IMG/VR virus record: IMGVR_UViG_3300010885_030283
Location: 1 to 22,320 of that record
Direction: 5' to 3' (one strand)
Length of the DNA: 22,320 bases
DNA from: a virus
In this document: positions 1,983 to 6,999 of the stretch, piece after piece
Layout of the letters: the number at the start of each line of letters is the position of its first letter
How positions within the stretch are numbered: position 1 is the first letter of the stretch
Translations under genes and position numbers: made by a program
Notes under the pieces: generated by a model
Seen by the model: the letters and a program-made list of their open reading frames with translations, nothing else
What the model was told of the DNA's origin: nothing
Database searches by the model: none

Positions 1983-2248
1983 TAAATTGGGTGTGAATGG
2001 CCATGAAAAAATGCCGTAGAACCAAAGGGTTGTGGGGTGTCTAGGTCAAATAGTCATTCTTATGAGTTAATTTAGGAATAAATATAGATAGTGTAAATTC
2101 AAAACTGAAGCTTTCTGGGTCATTGAGCGATTTGAGAGGACCCTGAAATCTTTCAGCCGCTTCATTGGAGGTGCATTTGGGCGGGGTGATTTAGGGCTGA
2201 AGTAGAGGGACAAGAAGCAAAATAAAAAAGTCTTCGGCTTTGGGTTCC

Positions 2249-2365
2249 GTCGGCCTTGGGCTTGGCTGTGTGGGGGGTCGGCCTTGGGCTTGGCGTTGGT
2301 CGGCCTTGGGCTTGGCGTTGGTCGGCCTTGGGCTCGGTCGGCCTTGGGCTCCGTCGGCCTTGGGC
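2249..2365. repeat. Six copies of the 13-mer GTCGGCCTTGGGC
   Basis: Copies start at 2249, 2277, 2299, 2321, 2337 and 2353, giving spacings of 28, 22, 22, 16 and 16 bp. A degenerate copy may precede them near 2231. Spacers contain TTGGCGTT in two units. All spacings leave remainder 1 on division by 3, so the array does not encode a periodic protein. Confidence 0.85.
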
Positions 2366-2425
2366 AGGGCCGACCGGCGACCGGCCGACCGGCCGCCCGG
2401 CCGCTTGGCCGACCGGCGAAGGGGC

Positions 2426-2455
2426 GCGAAGCACCCCGATCTGCGGGTGCTTCGC
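2426..2455. repeat. Hairpin, copy 1 (11-bp stem)
   Basis: Inverted repeat with perfect 11-bp arms GCGAAGCACCC (2426-2436) and GGGTGCTTCGC (2445-2455) around the 8-nt loop CGATCTGC. It is repeated 46 bp downstream with the same loop. There is no T-run, so it is not a typical intrinsic terminator. Confidence 0.85.
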
Positions 2456-2469
2456 CGCCCGGCGAAGGT

Positions 2470-2503
2470 GCGCGAAGCACCCCGATCTGCGGGTGCTTCG
2501 CGC
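2470..2503. repeat. Hairpin, copy 2 (13-bp stem)
   Basis: Second copy of the hairpin, with perfect 13-bp arms (2470-2482 and 2491-2503) around the same loop CGATCTGC. The sequence ahead of both copies is also similar (GGCGAAGG then GCGCGAAG), so the repeated unit is about 46 bp. Confidence 0.85.
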
Positions 2504-2506
2504 GCC

Positions 2507-2527
2507 CGGCGACCGGCGACCGGCGAC
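2507..2527. repeat. Three tandem copies of heptamer CGGCGAC
   Basis: Perfect tandem CGGCGAC three times, followed by more CCGG-rich variants up to the large palindrome. The 7-bp period is the same as in the separate array at 4155-4210. Confidence 0.75.
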
Positions 2528-2555
2528 CGGCCGCCCGGCGACCGGCACCGGCCGC

Positions 2556-2610
2556 CCGGTCGCATGGCCGGACCAATACGGATTTCGTATTGGTCCGGCC
2601 ATGCGACCGG
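2556..2610. repeat. Perfect inverted repeat, 25-bp arms, 5-nt loop
   Basis: The left arm (2556-2580, starting CCGGTCGCATGGCC) is exactly complementary to the right arm (2586-2610) around the loop GATTT. The arms pair over all 25 positions with no mismatch, unlike an ordinary terminator, and there is no following T-run. It lies in the middle of the GC-rich repeat patch. Possible roles are a replication or packaging landmark, a dimeric-protein site, or a mobile palindromic element; the sequence alone does not decide. Confidence 0.9.
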
Positions 2611-2640
2611 CACCGGCACCGGCACCGGCACCGGCACCGG
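2611..2640. repeat. Five tandem copies of hexamer CACCGG
   Basis: Five perfect CACCGG units directly abut the right arm of the large palindrome. The left side of the palindrome has only one such unit (around 2545-2550), so the flanks are asymmetric. Confidence 0.85.
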
Positions 2641-2687
2641 CCGCCCGGCGACCGTTACCAGGGCGCGCATACCCAGATACCGTGCCA

Positions 2688-2799: not shown

Positions 2800-3780
2800 A
2801 TGGCCCATAACATCGAAAAAATCGCATACCTCGGCAGCCGCGCAGACGTGTGGCACCACCTCGGATCCGAGATGACTTCTGGCATGTCGCTCGACGCATG
2901 GGCTCAAGAAGCGGGCCTTAACTGGGCGGCCGTCAAGGTTCCCGCGATTGCGGATTGCTCTAGCCTCGGTCGCGGCCCGGTCACAATGAAAGACCGCTCT
3001 TTCATCGTTCGCAGCGACACCGCAGCCCCGCTGGGCTACGTGTCGGGCGAGGATGAGACCAAGGGATACCGCATCTGCCAGCCGCTCGAGGTTCTCGACT
3101 GGTTTCAGCGCTATATCAGCGTCGATGATCGGTTTGAGCTTGATACCGCGATGTCGCTGAAGGGCGGCGCGCTTATCGCCGTGACCGCGAAATTTAACGG
3201 TGATTTGTCGGTGCTCGGTGAAGATCACCGGGCGCGCCTGCTTATGACCACCAGTTTTGACGGGTCGGCCTCGACTATCAATCAAATGACCATGACCAGG
3301 GTTGTTTGCAATAACACGTTAAACGTCGCGCTCAATGATAAGCGCGCCGCGATTAAGACCCGCCATAGCAGCGTGTTCGACGCGGCCGCCGTTGGTCGTG
3401 AGCTGGCGGGACTGGCGGAGAGCGTCGAGGGTTACAGCGCAATGGCGTCCGCCATGGCGGCCCACGATATGACACAGCGCGCCGTGTCGGACGTGTTCAA
3501 GCAACTGCTGAACATTCCGTTTGACGCGGTTTCCGAGGATATCAGCAGCAAAAAAATGAACGTGTTTTTAGCCTTGGTTAACAGCTATCAAGAGACCGTT
3601 GCGGAAGGCACGCAACCCGGCACGGCTTGGACTGTTCTTAACGCTGTTACACGCTACGTCGATCACGAGCGTTCGACGCGCGGCGGTGCCTCGCCGATGG
3701 AGGCCCGGTTCTTGTCCTCGCAATTCGGTTCGGGCGCTGCGATGAAGGCACAGGCCCACCAGCTCTTGTTGGCCGCGTGA
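2800..3780 (+). CDS. DUF932 family protein (phage/plasmid-like protein TIGR03299)
   Basis: A 326-residue protein matching the DUF932/TIGR03299 pattern: an N-terminal 'W H . L G' segment (WHHLGSEMTSGMSLDAWAQ), a following 'agLnW.v..vP' motif, a central region with 'N D K R A A I K T R H S' and 'T R V V C N N T L N', and a helical C-terminal half. Full-length members are about 300-350 residues, so this looks complete. The family is widespread on phages and plasmids; its biochemical role is not established, although proximity to replication genes is often noted. The start has AGGAAA nine bases upstream. It sits alone between two repeat-rich non-coding regions, with its own promoter upstream and a strong terminator downstream, and it shares a TGATG junction with a 23-codon membrane mini-gene. 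I am confident of the family, not of the function. Confidence 0.88.
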   Translation: MAHNIEKIAYLGSRADVWHHLGSEMTSGMSLDAWAQEAGLNWAAVKVPAIADCSSLGRGPVTMKDRSFIVRSDTAAPLGYVSGEDETKGYRICQPLEVLDWFQRYISVDDRFELDTAMSLKGGALIAVTAKFNGDLSVLGEDHRARLLMTTSFDGSASTINQMTMTRVVCNNTLNVALNDKRAAIKTRHSSVFDAAAVGRELAGLAESVEGYSAMASAMAAHDMTQRAVSDVFKQLLNIPFDAVSEDISSKKMNVFLALVNSYQETVAEGTQPGTAWTVLNAVTRYVDHERSTRGGASPMEARFLSSQFGSGAAMKAQAHQLLLAA

Positions 3781-3851
3781 TGGCCGCGCTCGACCTGCTC
3801 GCGGCGCTCGGGTTTGCGTGCCTGCTGTATGCAGCGCTGCTAGCGTTTTAA
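3780..3851 (+). CDS. Putative 23-residue single-pass membrane mini-protein
   Basis: A 23-codon frame starting MAALDLLAALGF and ending LLYAALLAF. Its ATG overlaps the DUF932 stop by one base (TGATG at 3778-3782), a classic termination-reinitiation junction. Apart from one Asp near the N-terminus, every residue is hydrophobic or small, so the whole peptide could span a membrane once. It ends 18 bp before a strong terminator, so it fits exactly in the DUF932 transcript. Peptides this short also arise by chance from Leu/Ala-rich GC sequence, and no ribosome-binding site is needed or seen. It could be a small membrane partner, toxin-like or holin-like peptide, or spurious; I have no family match. 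Confidence 0.45.
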   Translation: MAALDLLAALGFACLLYAALLAF

Positions 3852-3869
3852 GGTTCCCCCTGTCTACTC

Positions 3870-3899
3870 GGGCCCCGGTGAAAACCGGGGCCCTTTTTT
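3870..3899 (+). terminator. Strong intrinsic terminator of the DUF932 unit
   Basis: A perfect 10-bp stem, GGGCCCCGGT (3870-3879) with ACCGGGGCCC (3884-3893), a GAAA tetraloop, and six T (3894-3899). It ends the DUF932/mini-gene transcript and isolates it from the late operon. Confidence 0.93.
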
Positions 3900-3915
3900 A
3901 TGCCTGCGCCCTGCA

Positions 3916-4230
3916 CCCTGCGCCCTGCGCCCTGCTGCTGCGCCCTGCGCCCTGCGCCCTGCTGCTGCCCTGCTGCCTGCTGCCTGCTGCCTGCTGCCTG
4001 CTGCCTGCCCTGCCCGGCTGCTGCCTGCTGCCTGCTGCCCTGCGCCCTGCTGCTGCCCTGCTGCCCTGCTGCTGCCTGCTGCCTGCCCTGCCCGGCTGCT
4101 GCTGCTGCTGCCTGCTGCCTGCTGCCTGCTGCCCGGCTGCTGCTGCCCGGCTGCCTGCGCCCTGCGCCCTGCGCCCTGCGCCCTGCGCCCTGCGCCCTGC
4201 GCCCTGCGCCCTGCTGCTGCGCCCGGCGGG
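3916..4230. repeat. 315-nt A-free CTGC/CCTGCGC array
   Basis: Not one A occurs on the + strand over 315 nt. The sequence is built from CTG, CTGC, CCTGC and CTGCGCC words in irregular order, with blocks such as repeated CTGCCTG near 3970-4010. The - strand therefore contains many GGG or GG runs separated by short loops. Confidence 0.9.
4155..4210. repeat. Eight perfect tandem copies of heptamer CTGCGCC
   Basis: Eight consecutive 7-bp units. On the - strand this reads as GGG runs separated by the 4-nt loop CGCA, which satisfies the usual G-quadruplex pattern several times over. The 7-bp period rules out a frame-preserving protein repeat of one unit. Confidence 0.92.
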
Positions 4231-4405
4231 AAACGGTAGGCGGCGGCAGGCGGCCCGAAAGGTGCGGGGCCCCCCCCACGACCCCGCTTCGCCCCGGCCC
4301 GCGCAGCGAGCACCCCATGCTTTTCCCCCCCACACAAATATCAAAATTTTTTTTTTTTTTCTGCCAAATCTGCCAATGGCAGAAATGCCGATAAGTCTTC
4401 CGTAC

Positions 4406-4434
4406 TTGACTTTCTAATTTTTTTTTCCAATAAT
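4406..4434 (+). promoter_or_regulatory. Sigma70-type promoter of the late (morphogenesis) operon
   Basis: TTGACT (-35, 4406-4411), a 17-bp spacer containing nine T, and AATAAT (-10, 4429-4434), each 5 of 6 to consensus. It lies about 28 bp before the first late gene, whose AAGGAG ribosome-binding site is at 4451-4456. Confidence 0.65.
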
Positions 4435-4461
4435 TCCGGCCAGTATCAAAAAGGAGCTATC

Positions 4462-4785
4462 ATGGCCCGTATGCCGATGCCTGCCGCCCCCGCAATGATG
4501 GCCGATCCCGCGATGGCCGATGACGCCGCGATGACTGATGACGCCGCAATGATGGATGAGACTGAGATGGCCGAAGGCTATGTCATTGAAATCATCGTGA
4601 AGGCCGACGGTAGTTTTGCGGTCTCCAAGGAAGAGTTGCGGGCAGAGGCCGAAGAAGGCCCGGGCGAAGAAGCGATGAGCTACGACAGCCTTGGCCAAGC
4701 CATGAAAGCTGTTATGGACATCGTTAAGCAGAATCCGGTTGGTGAGTCAGAACAGAGTCAATTTGATGCCGGGTATGCCGCCTAA
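4462..4785 (+). CDS. Met/Ala/Asp-rich small protein, hypothetical
   Basis: A 107-residue acidic protein and the first gene of the rightward late operon. AAGGAG sits five bases before the ATG. The first 36 residues hold ten methionines in a repetitive Met-Ala-Asp pattern (ADPAMADDAAMTDDAAMMDE), probably disordered. A compact segment follows (VIEIIVKADGSFAVSKEELR) that looks like a beta hairpin and short helix, and the C-terminal part has one more predicted helix (QAMKAVMDIVK). Small proteins with an 'I.I.v..dG.f.V..e' core occur ahead of the terminase in other phages without known function. Its 3' end overlaps the start of the small terminase gene in another frame, so the two are probably coupled. 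I do not recognise a characterised family. Confidence 0.78.
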   Translation: MARMPMPAAPAMMADPAMADDAAMTDDAAMMDETEMAEGYVIEIIVKADGSFAVSKEELRAEAEEGPGEEAMSYDSLGQAMKAVMDIVKQNPVGESEQSQFDAGYAA

Positions 4786-5224
4786 ACAAGCTCGCTTCGC
4801 GGCGGCTTATGTGGCGAATGGTGGTAACAGCCTTGCGGCTGCGGCGACTGCGGGGTATGTGCAGGCCAACGCGACGGATATACTCAGAAAGCCAAAGGTA
4901 CAGGCCCTGATTGCGGAACTCGCGTCCAAGGCCGCACGAAAGTACGATCTGACGGTTGAGTTAGCGGCGGCAAATATCTACCGCGAGATGACGTTTGATC
5001 CGGCGTGTTTGTTCAATACGGACGGCACGGCAAAAAGCATTCACGAACTGAGCCCCGACACGCGCATGGCGTTGGCGGGTGTTGAGGTTGATGGGAATAT
5101 TGTTCGCTACAAGTGGGCGTCTAAGTCTGCCGCGCGCGGAGACCTAATGAAACACCTTGGTATGTTCGAGCGCGATAACGCGCAGAAGGGTGAAAGTCTG
5201 TCCCTCTTAATTAAATTGGTGTGA
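4766..5224 (+). CDS. terS: Terminase small subunit (Terminase_2-like)
   Basis: This is the DNA-recognition subunit of the packaging motor. It starts MPGMPPKQARFAAAYVANGG, which matches the 'ltpkQ..F...Y...gn...AA..AGY' opening of Terminase_2 small subunits, and then shows a helix-turn-helix-like stretch (SLAAAATAGYVQANATDILR) and 'kpkVqaLIaeL'. The frame extends upstream to a TTG at 4739, but family alignment favours ATG 4766 or 4775; I use 4766 (152 residues). Either choice overlaps the end of the preceding gene, with no strong ribosome-binding site, suggesting coupling. The C-terminal half (FDPACLFNTDGTAKSIHELS) resembles the oligomerisation and large-subunit-contact region of related proteins. 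Unusually, three tiny genes separate it from the large subunit. The family call is good; the exact start is uncertain. Confidence 0.88.
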   Translation: MPGMPPKQARFAAAYVANGGNSLAAAATAGYVQANATDILRKPKVQALIAELASKAARKYDLTVELAAANIYREMTFDPACLFNTDGTAKSIHELSPDTRMALAGVEVDGNIVRYKWASKSAARGDLMKHLGMFERDNAQKGESLSLLIKLV

Positions 5225-5578: not shown

Positions 5579-5719
5579 ATGAAGAAGCCCGGACTTTACG
5601 CCAACATTAACGCCAAACAGGCGAGGATTGCGGCGGGTAGCAACGAGAAGATGCGTAAGCCCGGCAGCCCCGGCGCGCCTACAGCTAAGGCGTTCAAGGA
5701 CTCAGCGAAGAAAAAATGA
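5579..5719 (+). CDS. 46-residue basic conserved phage mini-protein
   Basis: I translated this 46-codon gene by hand. It begins KKPGLYANINAKQARIAAGS after the initial Met and ends APTAKAFKDSAKKK. The pattern 'GLYANI.AK..RI..GS.EKMRKpGs.GAPTakaFk.aakt' is recurrent in short proteins of many T7-like and marine phages, where it is usually unnamed or annotated hypothetical. The stop overlaps the large-terminase start by four bases (ATGA at 5716-5719), so translation is coupled into the terminase. The protein is strongly basic with no hydrophobic core to speak of. Together with the two genes before it, it forms a conserved-looking mini-gene cluster between the small and large terminase genes. I have no function beyond its conservation; it is easily missed by automated calling. 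Confidence 0.75.
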   Translation: MKKPGLYANINAKQARIAAGSNEKMRKPGSPGAPTAKAFKDSAKKK

Positions 5720-6999
5720 GAGAGCTTCCACTAGAACTTCCCAAGAAGTTGGGGTTCTTGCTGGAACCACACCGCTACAAGGTTGTGTACGGTGGTCGAG
5801 GATCGGCCAAGAGTTGGTCGTTTGCGCGCACATTGATTGCGCTGGGGGCGTCTACACCCCTGAGAATACTCTGCGCGCGTGAGTTTCAACGCTCGATCAA
5901 AGATTCGGTACATCGGCTATTGTCGGACCAGATTCAGAAGATGGGTCTTGGAGCGTTTTACGAGGTTTTAGAGGCGGAGATTCGTGGCCGCAACGGCACG
6001 GAGTTCATCTTCGCGGGCTTGGCGGGGCACACGATTGAGTCGATCAAGTCGTATGAAGGTGTGAATATCGCGTGGATTGAGGAAGCGCAGACGGTATCCA
6101 AGCGGTCTTGGGACATTCTGACGCCTACCATTCGCGCGGAAAAGAGTGAGATCTGGGTGAGCTTTAACCCGGCTTTGGATACGGACGACACATGGCTTCG
6201 TTTTGTGGGTAGCCCGCCGCCGGGCGCGAAGGTTACCAAGATGAACTATCACGACAATCAGTGGTTTCCGGAAGTTTTGGAAGCCGAGCGTTTGTATTGC
6301 CAGCAGCACAATCCGGTCGATTACGCCAACATCTGGGAAGGCATCTGCGTCAGTGTGATATCGGGGGCTATTTATGCCCGCGAGGTTACCGAGATGCTGG
6401 AAGAGAACCGTGTTCGTCCGGTTCCGTATGACCCGGGCTTGCCGGTACATACCGTTTGGGATTTGGGTTGGAACGACGCCAACTCGGTGATTTTGCTTCA
6501 GCGGCTGCACTCTGAGGTTCGCATACTGGAGTATCTTGAGGGCAGCTATCGGTCGCTTCCGGAGTGGGTCGCGGAGTTGCAGAAGCGCCGGTATGTGTGG
6601 GGAACGGACTACTTGCCGCATGACGGCGGCCAAACACGCGGGCAGACGGGTAAGACCGACGCGCAGGTTGTTCGGTCGTTCGGGCGGCGGGTTGAGGTTA
6701 TGCCTCGAAATGATATAGAAGTAGGCATTCGCGCCGCGCGTGGTATGTTTCCTAGAGTCTACATGGACGAGATTAAGTGCGCGCGGTTGGTTGACTGTTT
6801 GAAACGCTATCGGCGTTCAGTTCCTGTATCTACCGGGGAACCGTCGTCGCCTGTACATGATGAATATAGTCACGGCGCAGATGCCTTTAGGGGTTTGGGC
6901 TTGATTGTAGACAAGATACGCAATGCAGGCGACCGGCCACCGCCGGAACGGCTGCCGAGTTTTTCCACATTCGACGCATCCATGGGTGCGTTGGGTTAA
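5716..6999 (+). CDS. terL: Terminase large subunit (PBSX/Terminase_3 type)
   Basis: This is the ATPase-nuclease that drives DNA into the prohead and cuts the concatemer. The protein has 427 residues, the usual size. The Walker A motif is GGRGSAKS at residues 26-33. The Walker B motif is NIAWIEEA at 117-124, with the catalytic glutamate among E122/E123. A coupling-type 'SFNP' lies shortly after. The C-terminal RNase H-like nuclease begins near 'VHTVWDLGWNDANSV', whose Asp residues are likely metal ligands, continues with 'YLPHDGG', and ends with 'HDEYSHGADAFR', supplying the last acidic residue. The start shares ATGA with the preceding mini-gene. The next gene has its own strong ribosome-binding site (AAAGGAG). 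The packaging mode (headful or cohesive ends) cannot be read from this sequence. Confidence 0.96.
   Translation: MRELPLELPKKLGFLLEPHRYKVVYGGRGSAKSWSFARTLIALGASTPLRILCAREFQRSIKDSVHRLLSDQIQKMGLGAFYEVLEAEIRGRNGTEFIFAGLAGHTIESIKSYEGVNIAWIEEAQTVSKRSWDILTPTIRAEKSEIWVSFNPALDTDDTWLRFVGSPPPGAKVTKMNYHDNQWFPEVLEAERLYCQQHNPVDYANIWEGICVSVISGAIYAREVTEMLEENRVRPVPYDPGLPVHTVWDLGWNDANSVILLQRLHSEVRILEYLEGSYRSLPEWVAELQKRRYVWGTDYLPHDGGQTRGQTGKTDAQVVRSFGRRVEVMPRNDIEVGIRAARGMFPRVYMDEIKCARLVDCLKRYRRSVPVSTGEPSSPVHDEYSHGADAFRGLGLIVDKIRNAGDRPPPERLPSFSTFDASMGALG

Follow-up and report, generated by a model that had tools for sequence, protein, structure and literature searches.

What kind of element is a stretch of 315 nucleotides, at positions 3916-4230 of a phage genome fragment, from which adenine is entirely missing? 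The DNA analyzed here, hereafter called the window, is a 22,320-base IMG/VR viral fragment from an uncultured tailed phage with a podovirus-like portal and an SU10-type adaptor. From left to right, the region around the tract consists of a DUF932 gene, a 23-codon open reading frame, a terminator, a repeat array, a conserved block, a promoter, and the packaging operon (Table 1). The initial annotation had placed the tract between a strong terminator and the late promoter; both elements are present, and the promoter is that of the packaging operon, beginning 185 nt past the end of the array. Terminator calls throughout are computational, some of them made by eye. Downstream of the first packaging gene lie the small (4739-5224) and large (5716-6999) terminase subunits. 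Searches for Rfam families and tRNAs found none, and no named phage relative of the window was found by DNA comparison.

Table 1 Features of the window in and around the A-free tract.
Feature	Position	Strand	Evidence
Second GC-rich tandem array set, filling the spacer that precedes the DUF932 gene	2230-2680		TRF rows 2249-2641, low complexity
DUF932-family gene; its operon ends at the terminator	2800-3780	+	PF06067 E=4e-37, phrog_1221
Strong predicted intrinsic terminator, GGGCCCCGGTGAAAACCGGGGCCC-TTTTTT, -23.7 kcal/mol	3870-3901	+	Identical hairpin in L009
CTG/CTGCC/CTGCGCC minisatellite array; A-free core 3916-4230	3901-4221		Repeat calls, word tiling, orthologous arrays in L009, L019, L020
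Eight perfect heptamers; GGGCGCA repeats, strict quadruplex motif	4155-4210	-	
Conserved array-to-promoter block; its minus-strand G-runs are also conserved (4270-4300, G4Hunter up to 2.4)	4255-4345		Alignment of relatives
Conserved sigma70-like promoter TTGACT-17-AATAAT, T-tract spacer	4406-4434	+	Alignment of relatives
First gene of packaging operon, 107 aa, variable MADDA repeats	4462-4785	+	

The absence of A is exact. The tract (C 153, G 95, T 67) exceeds every other A-free run in the window, of which the longest has 136 nt, and the maximum reached in 200 second-order Markov simulations was 69 nt. CTGC had been proposed as a building word and occurs 67 times in the tract; positions 4155-4210, described as eight perfect heptamers, read exactly as eight copies of CTGCGCC. 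The array starts slightly earlier than its A-free core, at about 3901, directly 3' of the terminator, and is broken by a lone A at 3915 that is also present in the related contig L009. A tiling with six words, including CTG, CTGC, CTGCC and CTGCGCC, fits the array at 0.02 changes per nt. The tract is free of A because these words hold none and the array is homogeneous. Active avoidance of A was considered and rejected: A was the product in 6 of 53 substitutions away from the tiling words, few of which are real substitutions, and these gave no evidence for selection against A in the array. A coding array was likewise rejected; the six frames owe their openness solely to composition, since a stop codon requires A on one strand or T on the other. 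The minus strand carries 23 GGCAG and 22 GCAGGG words. In its short tandem units with strand asymmetry and GGCAG/CAGGG core words, the array has the makeup of a minisatellite.

Several contigs from related phages carry the same region. Proteins of L009 are 86-99% identical to those of the window (DUF932 86%, large terminase 99%), and in this contig the same terminator hairpin is followed, in the same place and between the same flanks, by roughly 330 nt of CTGC array, whose units cannot be aligned one to one with those of the window array. The first bases of the L019 and L020 contigs (terminase 94%) fall within CTGC arrays at this position, and the L016 and L018 contigs begin just 3' of the array. 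The array-length comparison suggested by the initial annotation shows that the arrays of the window, L009, L019 and L020 differ in both length and order, as is characteristic of minisatellites, the lengths being those given by short-read assemblies. Words are common to the arrays of these relatives and their order is not; the downstream block and promoter, by comparison, can be aligned with many invariant columns. Unalignable arrays of the same words, in the same place, in L009, L019 and L020 from separate samples indicate that the array is real. A further relative, L024 (86%), lacks an array upstream of the same small gene, and its upstream stretch looks rearranged. Positions 1-150 of L024, upstream of the spacer, resemble a fragment of a large terminase gene, and the upstream stretch may be a chimera or a rearrangement.

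Other small features of the region were seen in the course of these comparisons. A 23-residue hydrophobic open reading frame (MAALDLLAALGFACLLYAALLAF, 3780-3851) overlaps the stop codon of the DUF932 gene and is kept in L009 (1726-1797) despite a different coding stretch preceding it there. At 4490-4560, 18-nt tandem repeats encode the MADDA-like repeats at the N-terminus of the 107-residue protein, and the copy number of these repeats differs in L009, L018 and L020. The L009 contig starts within a CGACCGCC array that matches in position the second array region of the window (2230-2680). Within that region the window has a perfect 25-bp inverted repeat with a 5-nt loop (2556-2610), possibly a cruciform or an origin element.

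Comparable arrays were sought by exact-word scans of 2.9 million viral contigs, which cover arrays holding the searched words and gave up to 32 loci per word among the matches listed; viral loci were grouped into lineages by shared proteins. Among these matches, a CTGC array that is C-rich on the transcript abuts a hairpin and T-run terminator in seven lineages (window/L009, L126/L128, L146/L150/L151, L116, L119/L235, L218/L224 and L135), with the terminators of L146 and L135 completed by eye. Full independence of L116 and L128 is uncertain, since the two share a distant upstream gene (36%). Similar arrays appear, from sequence comparison, to arise repeatedly in the same kind of place, next to terminators in about six other viral lineages among the matches listed. 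The opposite, G-rich transcript orientation was seen in L112 and in shorter arrays of phages with a phrog_2554 gene (L113, L114, L107 and others). Long CTGC arrays lean to the C-rich orientation at 7:1 (sign test, p = 0.07) or 7:2 (p = 0.18), neither of which is significant; the bias is only suggestive, and a strict orientation rule was rejected on the 7:1 count and on the contradicting phrog_2554 group. Terminator adjacency was found for roughly eight viral lineages versus two bacterial ones among the matches listed, and most bacterial arrays of this word lie away from terminators. A general bacterial habit was also rejected: a T-run followed by an array was found in none of 385 bacterial genomes of one class in the C-rich orientation and in one of 385 in the G-rich orientation. 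In whole viral records, an array stands at only one of several terminators. The longest array seen, a 985-nt CCTGC/CGTG array at 514-1498 of the unrelated viral contig L137, lies just upstream of a TTGACA-type promoter. No description of post-terminator arrays in phages was found in the literature searched.

Turnover behind shared terminators is visible at two further loci. In the homologous contigs L119 and L235 (66-73% protein identity), a CCTGCGC and a CCCTGC array, respectively, stand behind terminators at one locus. The related isolates RpAliso, RcXuper and MD18, which were picked via their phrog_2554 protein and not via arrays, share the operon-end hairpin GGGCGGCATTGCCGCCCG. Behind this hairpin RpAliso has a 29-nt unit in 4.1 copies, RcXuper has an unrelated 27-nt unit in 2.9 copies, and MD18 has no array. 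As far as sequences can tell, this trio is the clearest evidence for the gain, replacement and loss of arrays behind a conserved terminator. These repeats resemble the window array in standing immediately behind an operon-end terminator hairpin, but differ from it in their unrelated 27-29-nt units, G-richer transcript strand and fewer copies. In RcXuper (L263 2311-2562; record positions 135891-136142), the annotated gene RCXUPER_220 overlaps both hairpin and 27-nt array; this call is probably spurious, produced by the absence of stops in the repeat.

The initial annotation had interpreted the tract as a quadruplex or i-motif element that may block replication forks or transcription, give rise to R-loops, or exert control over late transcription, and this interpretation is only partly supported. 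Quadruplex potential on the minus strand was confirmed, with strict G3N1-7 motifs at 3909-3932 and 4160-4211; a third, missing from that annotation, lies at 4270-4300, and no strict motif was found elsewhere in the window on either strand. Despite these motifs, G4Hunter averages only 0.7 over the array. That a quadruplex is the key property of the array was not borne out by the relatives: strict motifs number three in the window, one in L009, and none in the array portions present in L019 and L020, whereas the G-run block outside the array is stronger and better conserved, with minus-strand G4Hunter values of 1.7-2.2 at 4270-4300 in all six relatives. This block has the top quadruplex score near the array and is kept in L009, L016, L018, L019 and L020; if a quadruplex matters here, it appears to be the better candidate. 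R-loops require G-rich RNA, and because the rightward transcript is C-rich, the orientation is wrong for an R-loop role. Altogether, a quadruplex tract with such effects is improbable. More improbable still is a role in packaging (as a cos/pac site) or as a replication origin. The array does lie about 500 bp upstream of the small terminase gene, and several relatives' contigs start in or beside it, but the window and L009 contigs run straight through, contig breaks at a repeat are usual assembly behavior, and the scanned genes flanking similar arrays in other phages are not terminases. Equally remote is that the tract is an assembly artefact or a type III restriction decoy of same-direction CAGCAG sites. 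The source is a short-read metagenome and CTGCTG occurs 29 times in the array; against these points, the same type of array is found in contigs from several other samples, and CAGCAG sites outside the array have no strand bias (11 versus 9), on which ground the decoy was rejected. Independent contigs with the same array seem to answer the artefact concern in part, copy number being taken from short reads. R-loop, packaging and restriction-decoy roles are not supported.

A transcriptional insulator is a more serious, though still doubtful, alternative. Polymerase that escaped the terminator would enter a long, C-rich, untranslated stretch with a G-rich template, and early read-through would be kept from the packaging operon by Rho loading on the C-rich RNA or by template-strand quadruplexes stopping polymerase. 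C outnumbers G across 3837-4242 and then across 4238-4453, and no plus-strand stretch of this kind is longer; of the 78-nt windows between 3837 and 4453, nearly all have a C/G ratio above 1.3 (mean 1.63), with spaced cytosines. These values satisfy the RhoTermPredict rule of C/G>1 in 78-nt windows (PMC6407284), and in vitro, RNA yields are lower with a G-rich template strand than with the reverse orientation (PMC7341879). The seven lineages with a terminator abutting a C-rich-transcript array, which were ascertained by their arrays, also fit. The array resembles Rho-dependent terminators in that C outnumbers G for hundreds of nucleotides of transcript that follow an operon and are not translated. 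Whereas rut sites are unstructured and poor in G, the array transcript is 29% G, has a minimum free energy at or below that of shuffles (z -2.0, -0.4), so that it folds about as well or better, and follows an intrinsic terminator; an unusual RNA fold was rejected as not clearly beyond shuffles. Orientation also varies in similar phage arrays, with L112, the phrog_2554 group and RpAliso G-rich on the transcript, MD18 has no array, and the bacterial class surveyed has none in the C-rich orientation. A back-up termination role is possible. A broader version, somewhat less probable again, is that post-terminator arrays are convergent insulators coded by composition: if position and base bias were selected and words turned over freely, unrelated phages would be rebuilding a back-up termination zone at a single operon boundary.

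The reading preferred here, to which we assign a probability a little under 0.6, is that the A-free tract is a hypervariable minisatellite with birth-and-death turnover in an inert terminator-promoter spacer, with mainly a spacing effect. The array would fill the space that separates the DUF932 operon terminator from the packaging operon promoter. This spacer is untranslated and normally untranscribed and, with neither coding nor promoter function to constrain it, would tolerate arrays. Growth from short CTG/CTGCC/CTGCGCC words would proceed via replication slippage and repeat recombination, probably promoted by the G-rich minus strand, whose GGCAG/CAGGG words could form fold-back structures. 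GGCAG and CAGGG repeats are described as unstable and structure-forming in mouse minisatellites (PMC2248197; PMC4882425), and instability of G-tract repeats has been seen in E. coli (PMC10530614). The phage array shares with the mouse minisatellites Pc-1 and Ms6-hm the core words on its G-rich side, an asymmetry between strands, rapid turnover of units and a noncoding nature. It differs from them in residing in a phage genome, in its mixed 3-, 4-, 5- and 7-nt words, in its fixed position between terminator and promoter, and in an instability deduced from relatives only. Arrays would be born, reshuffled, replaced and lost within the spacer, and for the phage the effect would be mainly extra spacing behind the terminator, with no sequence-specific role. 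Structure-promoted slippage or recombination in an unconstrained spacer would require the fewest assumptions for these data. Against the minisatellite reading, the array keeps its place and words within the family, terminator adjacency seems commoner in viral than in bacterial arrays, and orientation leans 7:1, all of which hint at some function. Most likely, the array is spacer DNA that the phage tolerates, and not a specific switch.

Insofar as this reading holds, the boundaries of phage operons are hot spots at which minisatellites arise, switch words and vanish behind an otherwise conserved terminator. A minisatellite at an operon boundary also explains why contigs break there. Open frames and quadruplex scores within such arrays should be treated with caution, as by-products of composition. 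Were an insulating effect to be shown, the arrays would represent a sequence-independent kind of termination back-up.
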